Shown: in pieces, positions 19,562 to 45,118 of the stretch
How positions within the stretch are numbered: position 1 is the first letter of the stretch
Layout of the letters: each line of letters opens with the position of its first letter
Assembly (NCBI GenBank): GCA_018004935.1
Contig: JAGNBF010000063.1
Span: 1-45,313, forward strand
DNA: 45,313 bases
Origin: Chloroflexota bacterium
Lineage (GTDB): Bacteria > Chloroflexota > Anaerolineae > Promineifilales > Promineifilaceae
Direction of reading: 5' to 3'
Made by a program: the position numbers and the translations under genes
The notes under the pieces: model-generated
Database searches by the model: none
Seen by the model: the letters and a program-made list of their open reading frames with translations, nothing else
What the model was told of the DNA's origin: nothing

Positions 19562-20048
19562 CCTGCCAAATGTGGTTGCCCAACCGGGCTGGCCTTGTGC
19601 CAGCCCGTACCAATCGCATTACCGTATTAAATTCTTAACCTTCCTAAACCGTTGAACGCCCGAAGCACGCTCAAAAAATGGCCCGAACTGTAGAACAGCC
19701 TTTTTGTAGTTAAAAAAATTAATCAGGTAATGGAATCCTCCCCACCCCTAACCCCGCCCCCAGGGACGGAGAATTTTTCCAATGGGGCATTTTTCGGGGC
19801 ATTCGCCCCGAAAAATGCCCCATTGGAATTTCCCCCTTCTCGCGGGAATCGGCAGGGGGGATGGGGTCAATGAATGCGTTACCCGATTAAAAATTTAATG
19901 AACAATCAGGCTGTTCACCCTCTCGTGAAAACAAAAAACGGTTACCGCCAGGAGCAAACCAAATTGAGAATTGCTGTTTACCCTGGCTGTCCGTTGCCCA
20001 TAACCAGGGTACGGGCTACAATGCGTGCCATTCAACGGTGAACGCACT
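19562..20048. repeat. R4 element interrupted by an R1 insertion
   Basis: A short R5-like palindrome (19566-19610) is followed by an R4 element from about 19647 to 19974. Its usual hairpin ACAGCCTTTCAGGCTGTTC is split after ACAGCCTT by an R1 element (about 19702-19906), and resumes with TCAGGCTGTTCACCC. The R1 core is a near-perfect palindrome (19777-19828) with loop ATTC. This is a direct record of R1 moving into R4. Confidence 0.85.
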
Positions 20049-24295: not shown

Positions 24296-24682
24296 ATGTT
24301 ACGAGAAATTATCCATACAACTCATGCCCCGGCGGCAGTAGGACCCTATTCGCAAGCGATTCGCCTCGGTAATCTGGTGTTTACATCTGGGCAAATTGCC
24401 TTAGACCCTTCCACCGGTAAACTGGTGGAAGGGGATGTGGTGGCCCAAACGCATCAGGTAATGAAAAATTTGCAATCAGTGCTCGCGGCCGCGGCCACGG
24501 ATCTCTCCCAAGTCATCAAAACCACCGTCTTCCTGCAAAACATGGGCGATTTCCCTGTCTTCAACCAGACCTACGCCCAATATTTCTCCAGCCAACCCCC
24601 TGCCCGCTCCACCGTAGAAGTAACTAAATTACCTTTAGGTGGCCTGGTGGAAATTGAATGTATCGCCCTTATTCAAGAGTAA
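24296..24682 (+). CDS. ridA: RidA family enamine/imine deaminase
   Basis: 128 residues, the standard size of this trimeric cytoplasmic family, which hydrolyses reactive 2-aminoacrylate and related imines formed by PLP enzymes. Family motifs are complete: AVGPYSQAIRLGNLVFTSGQIALDP, and near the end PPARSTVEVTKLPLGGLVEIECIA, with the conserved Arg that binds the carboxylate. ATG 24296 follows CAGGAGA; the upstream in-frame extension reads through repeat DNA. One GCGGCCGC encodes LAAAATD. Confidence 0.95.
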   Translation: MLREIIHTTHAPAAVGPYSQAIRLGNLVFTSGQIALDPSTGKLVEGDVVAQTHQVMKNLQSVLAAAATDLSQVIKTTVFLQNMGDFPVFNQTYAQYFSSQPPARSTVEVTKLPLGGLVEIECIALIQE

Positions 24683-24688
24683 ACGTAA

Positions 24689-24783
24689 CGATACACGTCC
24701 TTGAGGGCTGAGTTTGTCGAAGGCGAAGCCGGGCTTCGCCTTCGACAAACTCAGGCAGAGCCGTACCCCGTTTCTATAGATAC
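24689..24783. repeat. R8 palindromic repeat between ridA and the response regulator
   Basis: Starts GATACACGTCC, contains GCTGAGTTTGTCGAAGGC and the complementary GCCTTCGACAAACTCAG around GAAGCCGGGCTTC, and ends CTATAGATACG. Reverse-oriented copy at 32287-32378. Confidence 0.85.
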
Positions 24784-28287: not shown

Positions 28288-28437
28288 TTCAGTTACCCCG
28301 CCCCCAGGGGCGGGGAACTTTTCTAAGGGGCATTTTTCGGGGCGAATGCCCCGAAAAATGCCCCATTGGAATTCCCCCTTCCCTCGGGAATCGGCAGGGG
28401 GATGGGGTCAATCAATGCGTTACCCGTTGATTAAATT
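28288..28437 (+). repeat. R1 element (loop GAAT)
   Basis: GGGGCGGGGAACTTTTCT, a palindrome with arms GGGGCATTTTTCGGGGC and complement around GAAT, then TTCCCCCTTCCCTCGGGAATC and GATGGGGTCAATCAATGC. The loop is the reverse complement of that in the copy at 19777-19828, although the flanks have the same orientation. Confidence 0.88.
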
Positions 28438-31723: not shown

Positions 31724-32269
31724 CTACGGTGTACTTTTCATAACCTTGAGGAGTTGATTGATATCAGGATGATCCCCGGCATGGGCACTGTAATGGGCAA
31801 ACTGGATAACACCCTCTTCATCTACGACAAACGTACCCGGCAACATCTTGGTATTCCCCGTCGCTTCACCTTGCAAATGCCCACTGGTCATTGCTCGCAT
31901 TGAAGCCACGTAAAGGGCTGGATTGGCTATTCCCCATAAACCAAATTCTGTTAAGCCGTATTGTTTGTAAGCCTTTTCATTTTGGTCTACATGACACACA
32001 AGACTAGGAGCCAGTTTGCCACAAAAATGGCGTGCATGTTTTGGTTCTCCCAACCCAACGGCGATAATGCGTAACCCTGCGGCCGCAAATTTTTCGTGAG
32101 ACTGCTCCAACTGAGCTAGCCACTCGCGACAAAAAATTCAGCCAAAGTGCCGCAAAAATGTTAATACAATGGGGCCATCAGCCCAGCATGATTTCAAGTC
32201 AATTTTTTGCCCTCCAGCGTCATACACCTGTTCGGAGGGGGCCATCTGACCCACACGCAATCTTGTCAT
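31724..32269 (-). CDS. Peroxiredoxin-like (AhpC/TSA) protein, candidate selenoprotein with in-frame UGA
   Basis: Read through one UGA (32140-32138), the frame gives 181 residues of a thioredoxin-fold, PRXL2A-like peroxiredoxin: MTRLRVGQMAPSEQVYD, then PIVLTFLRHFG-U-IFCREW, AAAGLRIIAVGLGEPKHARHFC and GTFVVDEEGVIQFAHYS. The UGA is residue 44, where the family has the first Cys of CxxC (Cys47 is kept), so the motif becomes UxxC. An inner hairpin (32104-32116) has arms GCTC/GAGC and loop AGTTG, with an outer GTGG/TCAC pairing (32096-32123). Its loop begins 26 bases after UGA and has G at its second position, as in bacterial SECIS elements. AAAGGA precedes the ATG. The alternative is a single-base nonsense mutation. 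One GCGGCCGC. No selenium-system gene is in the window. Confidence 0.75.
32096..32123 (-). promoter_or_regulatory. Candidate bacterial SECIS hairpin
   Basis: Upper stem GCTC/GAGC, apical loop AGTTG (32112-32108), internal loop CTA/AGTC, lower stem GTGG/TCAC with one G-T pair. Distance from the UGA and the G near the start of the loop fit the known bacterial pattern. The stem is short, so the call is tentative. Confidence 0.5.
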
Positions 32270-33104
32270 CCTTGTGATTTCCTTTGTATCTATACAGGTG
32301 GGGTATGGCTCTGCCTGAGCTTGTCGAAGGCGGAGCCGGGCTTTGACAGGCTCAGCCCCCGAGGACGTGTATAGTTACTTTCCTTTTACTAAAAAATGGT
32401 CTAAGAATAACTTCCCTTTTGGCTGTGGCCGGTCCCCTGATCGCGCCACCCAAGTTATGTTCCGCCAAAACCTGATCGTAGTTTAAAAAATTAATCAGAT
32501 AATGGAATCCCCCCCACCCCTAACCCCGCCCCAGGGGCGGGGAACTTTTCTAAGGGGCATTTTTCGGGGCGAATGCCCCGAAAAATGCCCCATTGGAATT
32601 CCCCCCTTCCCTCGGGAATCGCAGGGGGAATGGGGTCAATGAATGCGTTACCCGATTAAAAATTTAATGAACAAACAGGTTTTCAGAAACGTGTCCGGTC
32701 CAAACCAGGAAGTTATATTTTTACGAACCCTAAGCCAGGCACCAGGTTCTTACACCCGCTCTTTCCTGACGCGCTACTTTATGCCTTGAAAAATTACCCG
32801 TCACTTTACCAATAACGGCGAGTAACCCGAAACAATTAACCCCCACCTCCCGCAATTAGTTATCATGTGTAGCTTAACACACAAATCAATATCGTCAATA
32901 TTTTGTCCATATTTCAGATAAAGATCCGCTCTTTGTCTAGCTATGAGTAATAAATTGATGATTATGCGGTTGTTTTTTTGTATTTATGGACGAGAAGGGT
33001 GCAATTTTTAGAACCAAATACAAACCAAAAACACGCCCCTGTTAAGATAAAATGTAAGCCACTCAAGCACACATCTATACACTAATAAACAAGGAGCTTT
33101 CACT
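32270..33104. repeat. Repeat-rich then A/T-rich intergenic region
   Basis: R8 (32287-32378), an R6-related piece with GGCCGGTCCCCTGA (about 32417-32445), and R1 (32478-32672, loop GAAT) set inside an R3-like repeat: AAACCTGA lies to its left and CAGGTTTTCAGAAACGTGTC to its right. From about 32780 to 33104 the sequence is A/T-rich with no repeat of the named families, and probably carries the promoter of the secreted-protein gene. No gene is seen. Confidence 0.75.
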
Positions 33105-34847: not shown

Positions 34848-35828
34848 TTAGTCGTTCATTTCAACGACCACTTTCCCCATAGCCCGTCTGTCCATCAGTA
34901 CGCGAAGCGCCTCACCGGTGCGTTCAAGAGGAAAGCGGTAAGCAATGTGGGGTTTGATCTGCCCCTGTTCATACCAGCCAAGGAGTGTGCGCAAAGATTG
35001 GCGCAAGGTGTCAGGGTCTTTTTGGGTGTAATTGCCCCAATAAACCCCCACCACGCTACAGTTTTTCACCAGAGTGAGATTAGCCGGTATCTGAGGAATG
35101 CGGCCGCTGGCGAAACCAATAACCAGAAGTCGCCCTTCCCATGCGATACAACGTAAGGATTGGTCAAACACATCACCCCCTACAGGATCGTAAATCACAT
35201 TGGCCCCCCGACCCTGGGTAAAGGCTTTGACCTGCTCAACAAAATTCTCTTCCCGGTAATTGATCACATAATCAGCGCCATATTGGCGGGCGATAGCCAG
35301 CTTCTCTGAAGTACTGGCGGTAGCAATAACGGTAGCCCCCATCAGTTTGCCAATTTCCACAGCGGTGAGACCCACCCCACCCGCCGCACCATGCACCAAT
35401 AAGGTTTCCCCTGGTTGGAGGTGGCCCCGATGGTTCAGAGCGATGTGGGATGTCCCATAAGCAATGGCGAACGCGGCCGCGTCTCCCCACGCCATTCTCT
35501 CCGGTACAGGCAAAACCAGGGCCGCCGACACCACAATTTCTTCAGCAAATCCGCCGGTTCCGGGAATAGCCACCACCCGATCCCCCAGCTTTAGATGACG
35601 TACCCCTTCCCCAATAGCCGCAATTTCCCCGGCAATCTCCATCCCGGGTATAAACGGGAAGGGTGGCTTCACCTGATATTGCCCCTGGATCATCAATGTA
35701 TCGGCAAAATTAACCCCACAGGCGCGAATCCGAATTTTGACTTCTCCTGCTTGGGGCGTGAGATCAGGTAAGTCGGTATAAACAACTGTTTCTGGGGGGC
35801 CAAACTGCTGACAAATGATAGCTTTCAT
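34848..35828 (-). CDS. Zinc-independent NADPH:quinone oxidoreductase (MDR superfamily)
   Basis: 326 residues. A GroES-like domain (FGPPETVVYTDLPDL, GVNFADTLMIQGQY, FIPGMEIAGEI) is followed by a Rossmann domain with VHGAAGGVGLTAVEIGKLMGA (near residue 145), the NADPH loop of the quinone reductase branch. Zinc-ligand cysteines of alcohol dehydrogenases are absent. It reduces quinones or enones in the cytoplasm; the natural substrate is unknown. Its ATG overlaps the stop of the XdhC-family gene by four bases, so the two are translationally coupled. Two GCGGCCGC sites are present. Confidence 0.92.
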   Translation of the reverse strand: MKAIICQQFGPPETVVYTDLPDLTPQAGEVKIRIRACGVNFADTLMIQGQYQVKPPFPFIPGMEIAGEIAAIGEGVRHLKLGDRVVAIPGTGGFAEEIVVSAALVLPVPERMAWGDAAAFAIAYGTSHIALNHRGHLQPGETLLVHGAAGGVGLTAVEIGKLMGATVIATASTSEKLAIARQYGADYVINYREENFVEQVKAFTQGRGANVIYDPVGGDVFDQSLRCIAWEGRLLVIGFASGRIPQIPANLTLVKNCSVVGVYWGNYTQKDPDTLRQSLRTLLGWYEQGQIKPHIAYRFPLERTGEALRVLMDRRAMGKVVVEMND

Positions 35829-39027: not shown

Positions 39028-39056
39028 ATTTTCCCATAGCCCTGAGTAAAAGTCAA
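39028..39056 (-). promoter_or_regulatory. Candidate promoter of tRNA-Arg
   Basis: TTGACT (39056-39051), 17 bp and GAAAAT (39033-39028) on the minus strand, placed just upstream of the tRNA and overlapping the end of malQ. Match to the -10 consensus is partial. Confidence 0.4.
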
Positions 39057-40552
39057 TACCGCCCGTATAACTCCGTCAGATCCCGCAATTGCTCCGTCAT
39101 AACAACCGTTATCTGTTCAGCCTGATAACGCCACTGCCAGTTCCCCCCAGCCCGTCCAGGATAGTTCATGCGCCCCTCTGGCCCAATGCGTAACAAATCC
39201 TGCATTGGCACAACGGCCATATCCCCCACTGAAGCAAAAGCCAGGCGAATCATATCCCAGGCCGGGTCTTCATTATAGGCATGGGCATAGCGGCGCATAT
39301 GCTGTTGCTCCGTCGCCGAAGCGGTCTGATACCAGCCAATGCTAGTATCGTTGTCATGCGTACCACTGTAAACAACACAATTTTGGCTGAAGGTATGGGG
39401 CAAAAAGCTACTATTCCGCTCCCCACCAAAGCCAAATTGCAGAATCTTCATGCCGGGAAAATCAAAACGTTCCCGTAAAGCCACTACCTCTGGCGTAATA
39501 ACCCCCAAATCCTCGGCAATGATGGGTAACTCGCCCAGGTGACGCGCCATAGCTTCAAAAACGGCGGCATCTGGCCCTTTTACCCAACGCCCAATGACGG
39601 CGATGGGTTCGCTGGCGGGAATCTCCCAATACGCTTCGAACCCTCGAAAATGGTCAATCCGCAAAATATCTACCTGGGTGAAGGTGGCTTTGAGTCGAGC
39701 CGCCCACCAGGCATAATCCGTTTCGGCCATCCGCTCCCAACGGTATAAGGGATTACCCCACCGCTGACCGGTAACACTGAAGTAGTCCGGGGGGACACCG
39801 GCAATAAATTTAGGTGAACTATCTTCATTGAGCCAGAACAGGTGCGGATTTGCCCACACATCGGCACTATCCATAGCCACAAAAATGGGCACATCGCCAA
39901 TGATGCGGATACCCCGGTTATTGGCATACTGTTTTAGTTCCAACCATTGGCTAAAGAAGAGGAATTGCAGAAATTGGAAGTAGGTGACTTCCTCAGCTAA
40001 TTCGATGCGCCATTGAGAGAGCGCGGCCGCGTCACGCTTTCTGATCGCTTCCGGCCACGTATGCCACATCCCCCCATCCTGCGCCGCAAAATGCTGTTTC
40101 AGAGCCATAAACAAGGCAAAGTCATCCAACCAGTGCCGATTATCCAGGCCAAAACGGGTAAACGCATTCCGCTGTACCGCCGTGCCCCTGGTCCGAAAAT
40201 GGTCAAAGGCCTGCCGAAACAGTTCGTTCTTGTACCCAATCACCCAACCAAAATCCACCTTATCGGCGGGGAAATTCGGCACCTCGGCTACGGCAGTGTC
40301 AGGCAAATAGCCTTGGGCTACCAGGCGGTCCGGGCTGATGAGCAACGGATTACCCGCAAAAGCCGAAAAGGATTGATAAGGAGAATCGCCATACCCCGTT
40401 GGCCCCAAGGGCAGAATTTGCCACAGTGACTGTTTACTCTGGAGCAAAAAATCTACAAAGTTATAAGCCGCATCCCCCAAATCACCGATACCATAACGAC
40501 TGGGGAATGAAGTAGGATGAAGTAACACGCCTGCGGCGCGGTTAAAACGCAT
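39053..40552 (-). CDS. malQ: 4-alpha-glucanotransferase (amylomaltase)
   Basis: 499 residues, the usual size for the GH77 enzyme, which transfers glucan segments between maltodextrins in the cytoplasm. Visible motifs are GVLLHPTSFPSRYGIGDLGDAAY at the start, GDVPIFVAMDSADVWANP, the nucleophile Asp in LRIDHFRGFEAYWEIPA, the acid/base Glu in IIAEDLGVITPEV, and YSGTHDNDTSIGWY with the third catalytic Asp. It follows glgA after 27 bases on the same strand, so the two probably form a glycogen/maltodextrin operon. AGAGG precedes the start. One GCGGCCGC. Confidence 0.97.
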   Translation of the reverse strand: MRFNRAAGVLLHPTSFPSRYGIGDLGDAAYNFVDFLLQSKQSLWQILPLGPTGYGDSPYQSFSAFAGNPLLISPDRLVAQGYLPDTAVAEVPNFPADKVDFGWVIGYKNELFRQAFDHFRTRGTAVQRNAFTRFGLDNRHWLDDFALFMALKQHFAAQDGGMWHTWPEAIRKRDAAALSQWRIELAEEVTYFQFLQFLFFSQWLELKQYANNRGIRIIGDVPIFVAMDSADVWANPHLFWLNEDSSPKFIAGVPPDYFSVTGQRWGNPLYRWERMAETDYAWWAARLKATFTQVDILRIDHFRGFEAYWEIPASEPIAVIGRWVKGPDAAVFEAMARHLGELPIIAEDLGVITPEVVALRERFDFPGMKILQFGFGGERNSSFLPHTFSQNCVVYSGTHDNDTSIGWYQTASATEQQHMRRYAHAYNEDPAWDMIRLAFASVGDMAVVPMQDLLRIGPEGRMNYPGRAGGNWQWRYQAEQITVVMTEQLRDLTELYGRY

Positions 40553-40579: not shown

Positions 40580-42022
40580 TCACTGACTCCGACTCATCGC
40601 CTTTTCGTATAAGTCCACATATCCTTTGGCTGACCGTTCCCAGGAAAAATCTTGGGACATAGCCATCGTTTGCATGTGGCGCCAGTGAGTTTTGTTGTGA
40701 TAAAACACCCAAACCGCCCGGCGTAACGCTTCCCAGAAGGCGTCGGCAGTGTGTTGGCGGAATAAAAAGCCCGTCTGTCCATCCCAAATGGTGTCAGCTA
40801 GGCCACCGGTGGCTTTGGCTACCGGAATGGTGCCATAACGCATGGCAATAAGTTGCCCCAGACCGCAGGGTTCAAAACGGGAAGGCATGATGAAAATATC
40901 ACTGCCACCATAAATGAGGGGAGCCAGATTGGCATTGTAAGCCAGAACCGCCCGCATTTTGTCCTGGTGATACCCGGCCAGGTGAGCAAACATACGTTCA
41001 TACTCATCGGCCCCTGTGCCCAAAACAACAAATTGGGCATCGCCAGCCTGGGCATTGAGCAGGCGGTGGATCACTTCACCGGTAATATCTAACCCTTTTT
41101 GGTAATCGAGCCGCGTTACCATAGCCACTAACGGCACGTCATCCCGTTGGGGTAAATTCAGGGCGGCTTGCAGAGCACGTTTGACCTGATGTTTTTCGTC
41201 CAGATTGCTAGTGTCGTAATGATGGGGCAGGCGTGTGTCGGTGGCTGGGTTCCATTCATCCGTGTCTATACCATTCAATATGCCAAAAACATCTGGTGCG
41301 CGGTGTCGGAGCATGCCATCCAGATGAACACCCCCGGCTGGGGTCATAATTTCTTGGGCATAAGTGGGACTGACGGTATTGATGAGGGTGGCATGATGAA
41401 TGGCGCGGGCCATGAAGTTGACCTGATTGTACCCTTCTTCTTGTAGGGGGTAGGTCTGAATTTGCAGATAGTTGAAGATGTCCCAGGATGTTAAACCCTG
41501 GTGGGCCATGTTGTGAATGCTAAACAGGGTAGGAATGTTGCGCAGGCGATGATCGTTGTGGGCGGCGGTAGCCAGCCAGGTGATGGCTGGTGCAGTGTGC
41601 CAATCGTTGGCGTGAACAACATGCGGCCGCCAGTTCAAAATAGCTACAAGTTCCAGAGCCGCCCGGCTAAAGAAGGCAAATCGGTAAGGATCGTCATTAT
41701 AGCCATATACTTCAGGACGACCGAGGATGTTGCGTTCGGCGATGAAGTAGACAGGCACATCGCTATTGGGCAAGCGGCCGCGGAAAACCCCATTGATGAT
41801 GCTACTTCCGCCTACCGGCACATGCATATGTCCCGGCATCGCTTCCACACCCGAGTATCCGGCTTCAATATTGCCATAAGCTGGCATGATCACCCGTACA
41901 TCATGCCCCAACGCCTGTAACGCTTTGGGTAAAGACCCACCAACATCACCTAGCCCCCCGCGTTTGGCAAAGGGAGCTACTTCCGCACTAAGAAAGAGAA
42001 TGCGCAAAGAGGTACTCATCAT
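40580..42022 (-). CDS. glgA: Glycogen synthase (ADP-glucose type, GT5)
   Basis: 480 residues. The N-terminal signature LRILFLSAEVAPFAKRGGLGDVGGSLPKAL holds the ADP-glucose-binding K-x-G-G-L loop, here KRGGL where KTGGL is most common. The C-terminal half has SRFEPCGLGQLIAMRYGTIPVAKATGGLADT with the catalytic Glu. It builds alpha-1,4-glucan from ADP-glucose in the cytoplasm. First gene of the glgA-malQ unit; no glgC or glgB is nearby. ATG 42022 or the next codon can start the protein. Two GCGGCCGC sites are present. Confidence 0.97.
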   Translation of the reverse strand: MMSTSLRILFLSAEVAPFAKRGGLGDVGGSLPKALQALGHDVRVIMPAYGNIEAGYSGVEAMPGHMHVPVGGSSIINGVFRGRLPNSDVPVYFIAERNILGRPEVYGYNDDPYRFAFFSRAALELVAILNWRPHVVHANDWHTAPAITWLATAAHNDHRLRNIPTLFSIHNMAHQGLTSWDIFNYLQIQTYPLQEEGYNQVNFMARAIHHATLINTVSPTYAQEIMTPAGGVHLDGMLRHRAPDVFGILNGIDTDEWNPATDTRLPHHYDTSNLDEKHQVKRALQAALNLPQRDDVPLVAMVTRLDYQKGLDITGEVIHRLLNAQAGDAQFVVLGTGADEYERMFAHLAGYHQDKMRAVLAYNANLAPLIYGGSDIFIMPSRFEPCGLGQLIAMRYGTIPVAKATGGLADTIWDGQTGFLFRQHTADAFWEALRRAVWVFYHNKTHWRHMQTMAMSQDFSWERSAKGYVDLYEKAMSRSQ

Positions 42023-44571: not shown

Positions 44572-44728
44572 GGAAACTCCTTGCATATCGCGCAGTGAAA
44601 ATAACGTACCCTCTCTTTCTCTTACGCACGCTCTCCTCTCCAAAACCAATTTAGGACACAGGGAGAAAAACAGTATCATCTACTGTTTTTCCCCCACCTA
44701 TTGCTCCATAACAAATTGTTGGTGTCTC

Positions 44729-45109
44729 AAGCCAGTCTATAAGCCGCATTCTGTACCCGCTGGCGCGGGTGGTGATCATCTCTCTGGGTGAACCATTACT
44801 GGGTCACTCTAGCAGTCTACCCGGACGTACCGCGAGACGAGCCGCCTCGCACCGGTCAGAGACCGGATTTCGCCCTGCTTGACCTTGCTCCCGGTGAGGT
44901 TTGCCTGGCCGATAACATTACTGCTATCGCCGGTGGTCTCTTACACCACCGTTTCACCCTCACCAGATGGGGCGAACCCCATTCTGGTACTGTACCTCTC
45001 TGTTGCACTTGCTGTCGGGTTGCCCCGCCCGGCCGTTAGCCGGCACCGTGCCCTATGGAGTGCGGACTTTCCTCGAGGTAATAACACCCCGCGATCACCC
45101 GACTAACTT
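44729..45109 (-). ncRNA. rnpB: RNase P RNA (bacterial class A)
   Basis: About 380 nt on the minus strand. The universal signatures are present: GAGGAAAGTCCGC close to the 5' end and ACAGAATGCGGCTTAT close to the 3' end. P1 pairs AGTTAGTC (45108-45101) with GACTGGCT (44737-44730). GGTGAGGGTGAAACGGTGG and other conserved core pieces lie between. It is the catalytic RNA that matures tRNA 5' ends. Open frames overlapping it are artefacts. The 5' and 3' ends are placed from the P1 helix and may be a few bases off. Confidence 0.97.
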
Positions 45110-45118
45110 GAGAAGAAG

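Follow-up and report, generated by a model that had tools for sequence, protein, structure and literature searches.

The selenocysteine (Sec) proteins nearest to the gene described here fall into several known groups. Metazoan selenoprotein L carries a UxxU motif, and PRXL2A represents the vertebrate selenoprotein U family (PRXL2/FAM213). UxxC forms of peroxiredoxin-like (Prx-like) selenoproteins have been on record from 2005 onwards, in the Sargasso Sea and GOS catalogues, as "Prx-like 1" and under pfam00578 (PMC1088965, PMC2398784), and recent reviews list Prx-like forms with both UxxC and UxxU (PMC9312934, PMC13188914). An AhpC/TSA family selenoprotein with pfam13911 and UxxS is part of the Olavius symbiont catalogue, as that catalogue is cited in PMC9312934. 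Among the selenoproteome papers that were text-searched, Chloroflexi are mentioned only in PMC1794560. The search found nothing specific on selenoproteins in this Chloroflexota group, which is weak evidence, subscription papers having lain mostly outside the search.

The gene lies in the window, that is, the whole stretch of 45,313 nucleotides of Chloroflexota DNA that was analysed. It is almost certainly a real selenoprotein gene with a predicted Sec at residue 44, and its product, judging from the sequence, is most likely a cytosolic thiol/selenol redox enzyme. Since UxxC Prx-like selenoproteins are already catalogued and an NCBIfam model exists, the gene is one further example of a known family. 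It shares Pfam00578, UxxC, and a bacterial SECIS (bSECIS) just past the UGA with the catalogued Prx-like proteins, compared by description, and it shares a full-length match, a thioredoxin fold, and an active-site Sec or Cys with the SelL-related proteins of NF040769. The Olavius symbiont protein, as summarised in the review, has the PF13911 match in common, but its motif is UxxS and not UxxC. Selenoprotein L proper has two Sec residues in UxxU, whereas this protein has U44-I-F-C47.

Reading frame and protein family

The frame runs on the minus strand from an ATG at 32269 to a TAG ending at 31724 and encodes a SelL-related, Prx-like UxxC protein of 181 residues, counting the UGA as Sec (MTRLRVGQMAPSEQ...LTFLRHFG-U-IFCREW...MKSTP). 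The initial annotation had described a frame interrupted by one UGA within FLRHFG-U-IFCREW and otherwise equipped with a start, a ribosome-binding site, and a stop. Its coordinates are right: the sole internal stop is the TGA of codon 44 (32140-32138), within FLRHFG-U-IFC, and the ATG, the TAG, and a Shine-Dalgarno-like stretch were all located. This stretch, AAAGGAAA, has its GGA core at 32281-32283 on the minus strand, 11 bases 5' of the ATG. No sigma-70-like promoter site was found just upstream of the gene. Codon 47 (TGT, 32129-32131, minus strand) encodes the predicted resolving Cys of UxxC. The window contains 70 sites at which a TGA stands between two open stretches of at least 35 codons each; among the best 40 of these 70, the codon-44 TGA alone combines a redox-type motif with a recognisable family.

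The two sides of the UGA were also said to read as one protein, and this holds because the family models match the joined protein. The NCBIfam model NF040769, "SelL-related redox protein," spans residues 10-176 with 145.6 bits against a cut-off of 120, and the downstream part alone reaches 88.8 bits, under the cut-off. The Pfam matches to the joined protein are AhpC-TSA (PF00578, 57.9 bits), AhpC-TSA_2 (PF13911, 51.1 bits), and Redoxin (PF08534). AlphaFold2 predicts a thioredoxin/peroxiredoxin fold (mean pLDDT 92.9, pTM 0.90) in which U44 stands just before a helix of residues 45-56, the place where the attacking residue usually sits. The best fold match in the PDB is 9usa, human PRXL2B (prostamide/prostaglandin F synthase; TM 0.75/0.82), which is also the best match by sequence (2.7e-9), followed among fold matches by Bcp, AhpE, and ResA proteins. 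The active cysteines of 9usa, a CxxC that is mutated in that entry, happen to be numbered Cys44 and Cys47 as well. PRXL2B differs in being eukaryotic and only about 20% identical, and the human form has Cys, not Sec. With PRXL2B as the best match, the label "PRXL2A-like," as first proposed, is fair for the wider relationship, but "SelL-related redox protein" is the better name. The motif is not the TxxC/TxxU of typical peroxiredoxins; it is G-U-x-x-C, with Sec in the thioredoxin-like first position.

The way in which such a protein would be made and would act can be outlined from established bacterial Sec biology and from the family and motif. SelB with Sec-tRNA(UCA) would bind a hairpin just past the UGA, and the UGA would be decoded as Sec at residue 44; the product would be a thioredoxin-fold protein whose active site reads U44-I-F-C47. 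The selenolate of Sec44 could then attack a peroxide or disulfide, Cys47 could resolve the intermediate by forming a selenenylsulfide, and the enzyme could be regenerated by thioredoxin or a comparable reductant.

Codon 44 in relatives and the Sec machinery

Among 98 genomes of the group, a homologue with exactly one internal TGA is present in 12 further genomes from the same family, at 46-53% identity. In every locus read out, the TGA aligns with the U44 codon in the motif RHFG-U-x-x-C, and the same arrangement extends to further families within the class and phylum. Across 31 aligned proteins, column 44 is U or C in all rows, and column 47 is nearly always Cys, with Sec in some paralogues. 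The homologue check proposed at the outset has, in other words, shown residue 44 to be either Sec (TGA) or Cys, and the in-frame UGA aligns with the redox-active Cys of homologues. The Cys members come mostly from a single family within the class, with scattered rows besides, and the two states are strongly clustered, with 5 changes on a 54-row tree versus 14 in shuffles.

These comparisons bear on several other explanations of the UGA. A sequencing or assembly error, the true codon being TGC or TGT and the protein an ordinary Cys protein, would fit with a window taken from a draft assembly of 229 contigs and with the existence of Cys homologues. It is very hard to reconcile, to the point of being highly improbable, with the TGA that this codon shows both in a dozen further assemblies from the family and in additional families of its phylum, and with a hairpin that goes with the TGA and not with a Cys codon. 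A TGC misread as TGA, which had been named as grounds for dropping the proposal, is thereby excluded, the TGA standing at the same codon in at least 12 independent genomes. A pseudogene carrying a premature stop deserves equally little credence. The UGA is formally a stop within the frame, but it is a single stop, always UGA and always at codon 44, in a protein conserved on both flanks, and the sequence 3' of it is itself conserved at 46-53% identity.

Least credible of all is a changed genetic code in which UGA stands for another amino acid such as Trp or Gly. Nothing specific speaks for it, and homologues have Cys at residue 44 rather than Trp or Gly. It was rejected for this window since TGA serves as a normal stop at other places in it. 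For example, the glycogen synthase gene (40580-42022) ends in a TGA in a frame shared with the following 4-alpha-glucanotransferase gene (39053-40552), and a TGA at 35827 terminates the XdhC gene.

Decoding of the codon-44 UGA as Sec needs support from the genome as a whole, a 7.98-Mb draft that is 96.6% complete. The initial annotation had called for a search for selA, selB, selC, and selD, and the complete bacterial selenocysteine set was found. There is one clear match each for selA (568.4 bits vs. a cut-off of 267.9) and selB (363.6 vs. 242), along with selD (375.9 vs. 125) and one tRNA-Sec (selC; 63.2 vs. 47 with the Rfam model); ARAGORN independently called a tRNA-SeC with anticodon UCA. 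The selB match and the tRNA-Sec exclude the refutation that had been proposed, a lack of selB or selC. Across the group, selA is above the cut-off in 81 of 98 genomes. It has no match in three relatives that carry the Sec gene (G020, G048, and G050), whose drafts are 68-90% complete. The selD of the source genome (L017) has an in-frame TGA of its own, in LASCAGU; being itself a selenoprotein gene, it may make SelD production selenium-dependent.

In bacteria, the decoding of UGA as Sec competes with termination. This general knowledge would also accommodate a gene with two products, with the UGA acting mostly as a stop that leaves a peptide of 43 residues, and with Sec insertion confined to times when selenium is available, in the manner of a selenium-dependent switch. 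The 43-residue peptide shows no sign of function, and such a switch is very unlikely, if a shade less so than the alternatives above.

Apart from the single-Sec gene with its Sec-or-Cys column, the relatives contain further forms. Selenoprotein L-like UxxU does occur, in paralogues with two in-frame TGA codons in LRHLA-U-x-P-U: L039 and L040 (both about 1500-2040), and L047 (60-596). Single-Sec LRHLAULPC forms are found in L042-L045 and L048. In L051, L052, and L053, the gene is a tandem pair in which a Cys copy (RHFGCIFC) of the same family ends just 5' of the Sec copy.

The hairpin downstream of the UGA

A small hairpin about 26 bases past the UGA, with a G near the start of its loop, had been pointed out, with the proposal of a SECIS prediction over 32140-32090, and a SECIS-like hairpin does lie in that place. 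It is a candidate bSECIS, GGCU(A)GCUC-AGUUG-GAGCAGUC, at 32100-32121 on the minus strand. Two 4-bp helices are separated by one bulged A (GGCU-(bulged A)-GCUC-AGUUG-GAGC-AGUC), the 5-nt loop AGUUG lies at 32112-32108 with G as its second base, the first loop base is at +26 after the UGA (25 nt spacing), and the minimum free energy is -9.6 kcal/mol. The published bacterial SECIS model has a loop of 3-9 nt with G in the first two positions, an upper stem of 4-16 bp, a UGA-to-loop distance of 16-37 nt, and a minimum free energy of -7.5 kcal/mol or lower (PMC13188914). The hairpin lies within all four constraints, with a stem of 4 bp, or 8 bp counted across the bulge.

Folding of the single sequence was rejected as proof of a SECIS. 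Against dinucleotide shuffles the hairpin shows no excess (z from +0.08 to -1.46), and 35% of synonymous recodings fold equally well, so that alone it stands at chance level. Its significance comes from the comparison with homologues. Over 14 Sec genes, a 6-bp stem is paired in 98.8% of cells, three of its six pairs show changes on both sides, and RNAalifold picks the same stem. The covariation is 0.423. Shuffles give 0.247 +/- 0.033, and sliding the partner strand by one to three bases, which destroys the stem, leaves no more than 0.090; the sequences are related, and shuffle counts are not probabilities.

The position of the hairpin is likewise tied to Sec. For 33 of 39 Sec genes, the top hairpin of a scan with G near the loop start has a loop that begins at +26 or +27, as against only 2 of 17 Cys genes, where positions are scattered; loops in the Sec genes are mostly AGUU or GGU. 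Synonymous recoding weakens the hairpin with a Fisher sum of 229 in the 39 Sec genes versus 54 in the 17 Cys genes, sums that are descriptive because the genes are related. Of 21 Sec genes, 17 have TTG and 2 have TTA as the Leu codon of the loop; in the same genes TTG makes up 22%, and the commonest Leu codon is CTG. The hairpin and this codon bias are, on the strength of such comparisons, RNA-level constraints beyond protein coding. The Cys copies of the tandem pairs L051 and L053 are without a hairpin at +26. Two more distant Sec homologues with RHFGUIFC, L046 and L049, also lack it, and their SECIS, if any, differs from the +26 hairpin.

Surroundings and meaning of the gene

The neighbours of the gene encode an SH3-domain protein, an alcohol dehydrogenase, and XdhC, and they form no operon with it. 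No conserved neighbourhood was found among the relatives; flanking frames are common mainly to one small subgroup (L026, L030, L031, L032, and L050), not to the window, and the neighbourhood was rejected as a clue to function. Because its flanking frames are not shared with relatives, the gene appears to stand alone. Just upstream of it is a short repeat (32286-32381, containing CTTCGACAAGCTCAGG), which recurs at 24682-24783 and, in shorter form, elsewhere in the window. Farther out, an intergenic repeat of about 140-205 bases (32478-32679) contains a perfect 17-bp palindrome, GGGGCATTTTTCGGGGC, at 32554-32591. The repeat also occurs at 19706-19910, at 28295-28435, and on several further contigs, and it has the look of a dispersed palindromic element. 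A bacterial class A RNase P RNA gene lies at 44724-45110 on the minus strand.

One of the practical consequences concerns automatic gene callers, which can shorten or overlook such genes: the table-11 frame list holds only the downstream part, 31724-32110 (128 codons). One could consider the Chloroflexota family as a Sec-rich group whose UxxC, UxxU, and tandem Sec/Cys forms make up a joint selenium-based peroxide defence with a specific, not yet described reductant partner, but this is an improbable extension. The gene leaves the picture of selenocysteine decoding unchanged. It provides a clean Chloroflexota case of a SelL-related protein with Sec, and the relatives supply homologues of both the Sec and the Cys type, paralogues with UxxU, and tandem Sec/Cys copies. 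The tandem copies in L051-L053 are a natural Sec/Cys control, and the homologue set as a whole is useful for setting Sec against Cys within a single fold and for tracing Sec/Cys exchange.
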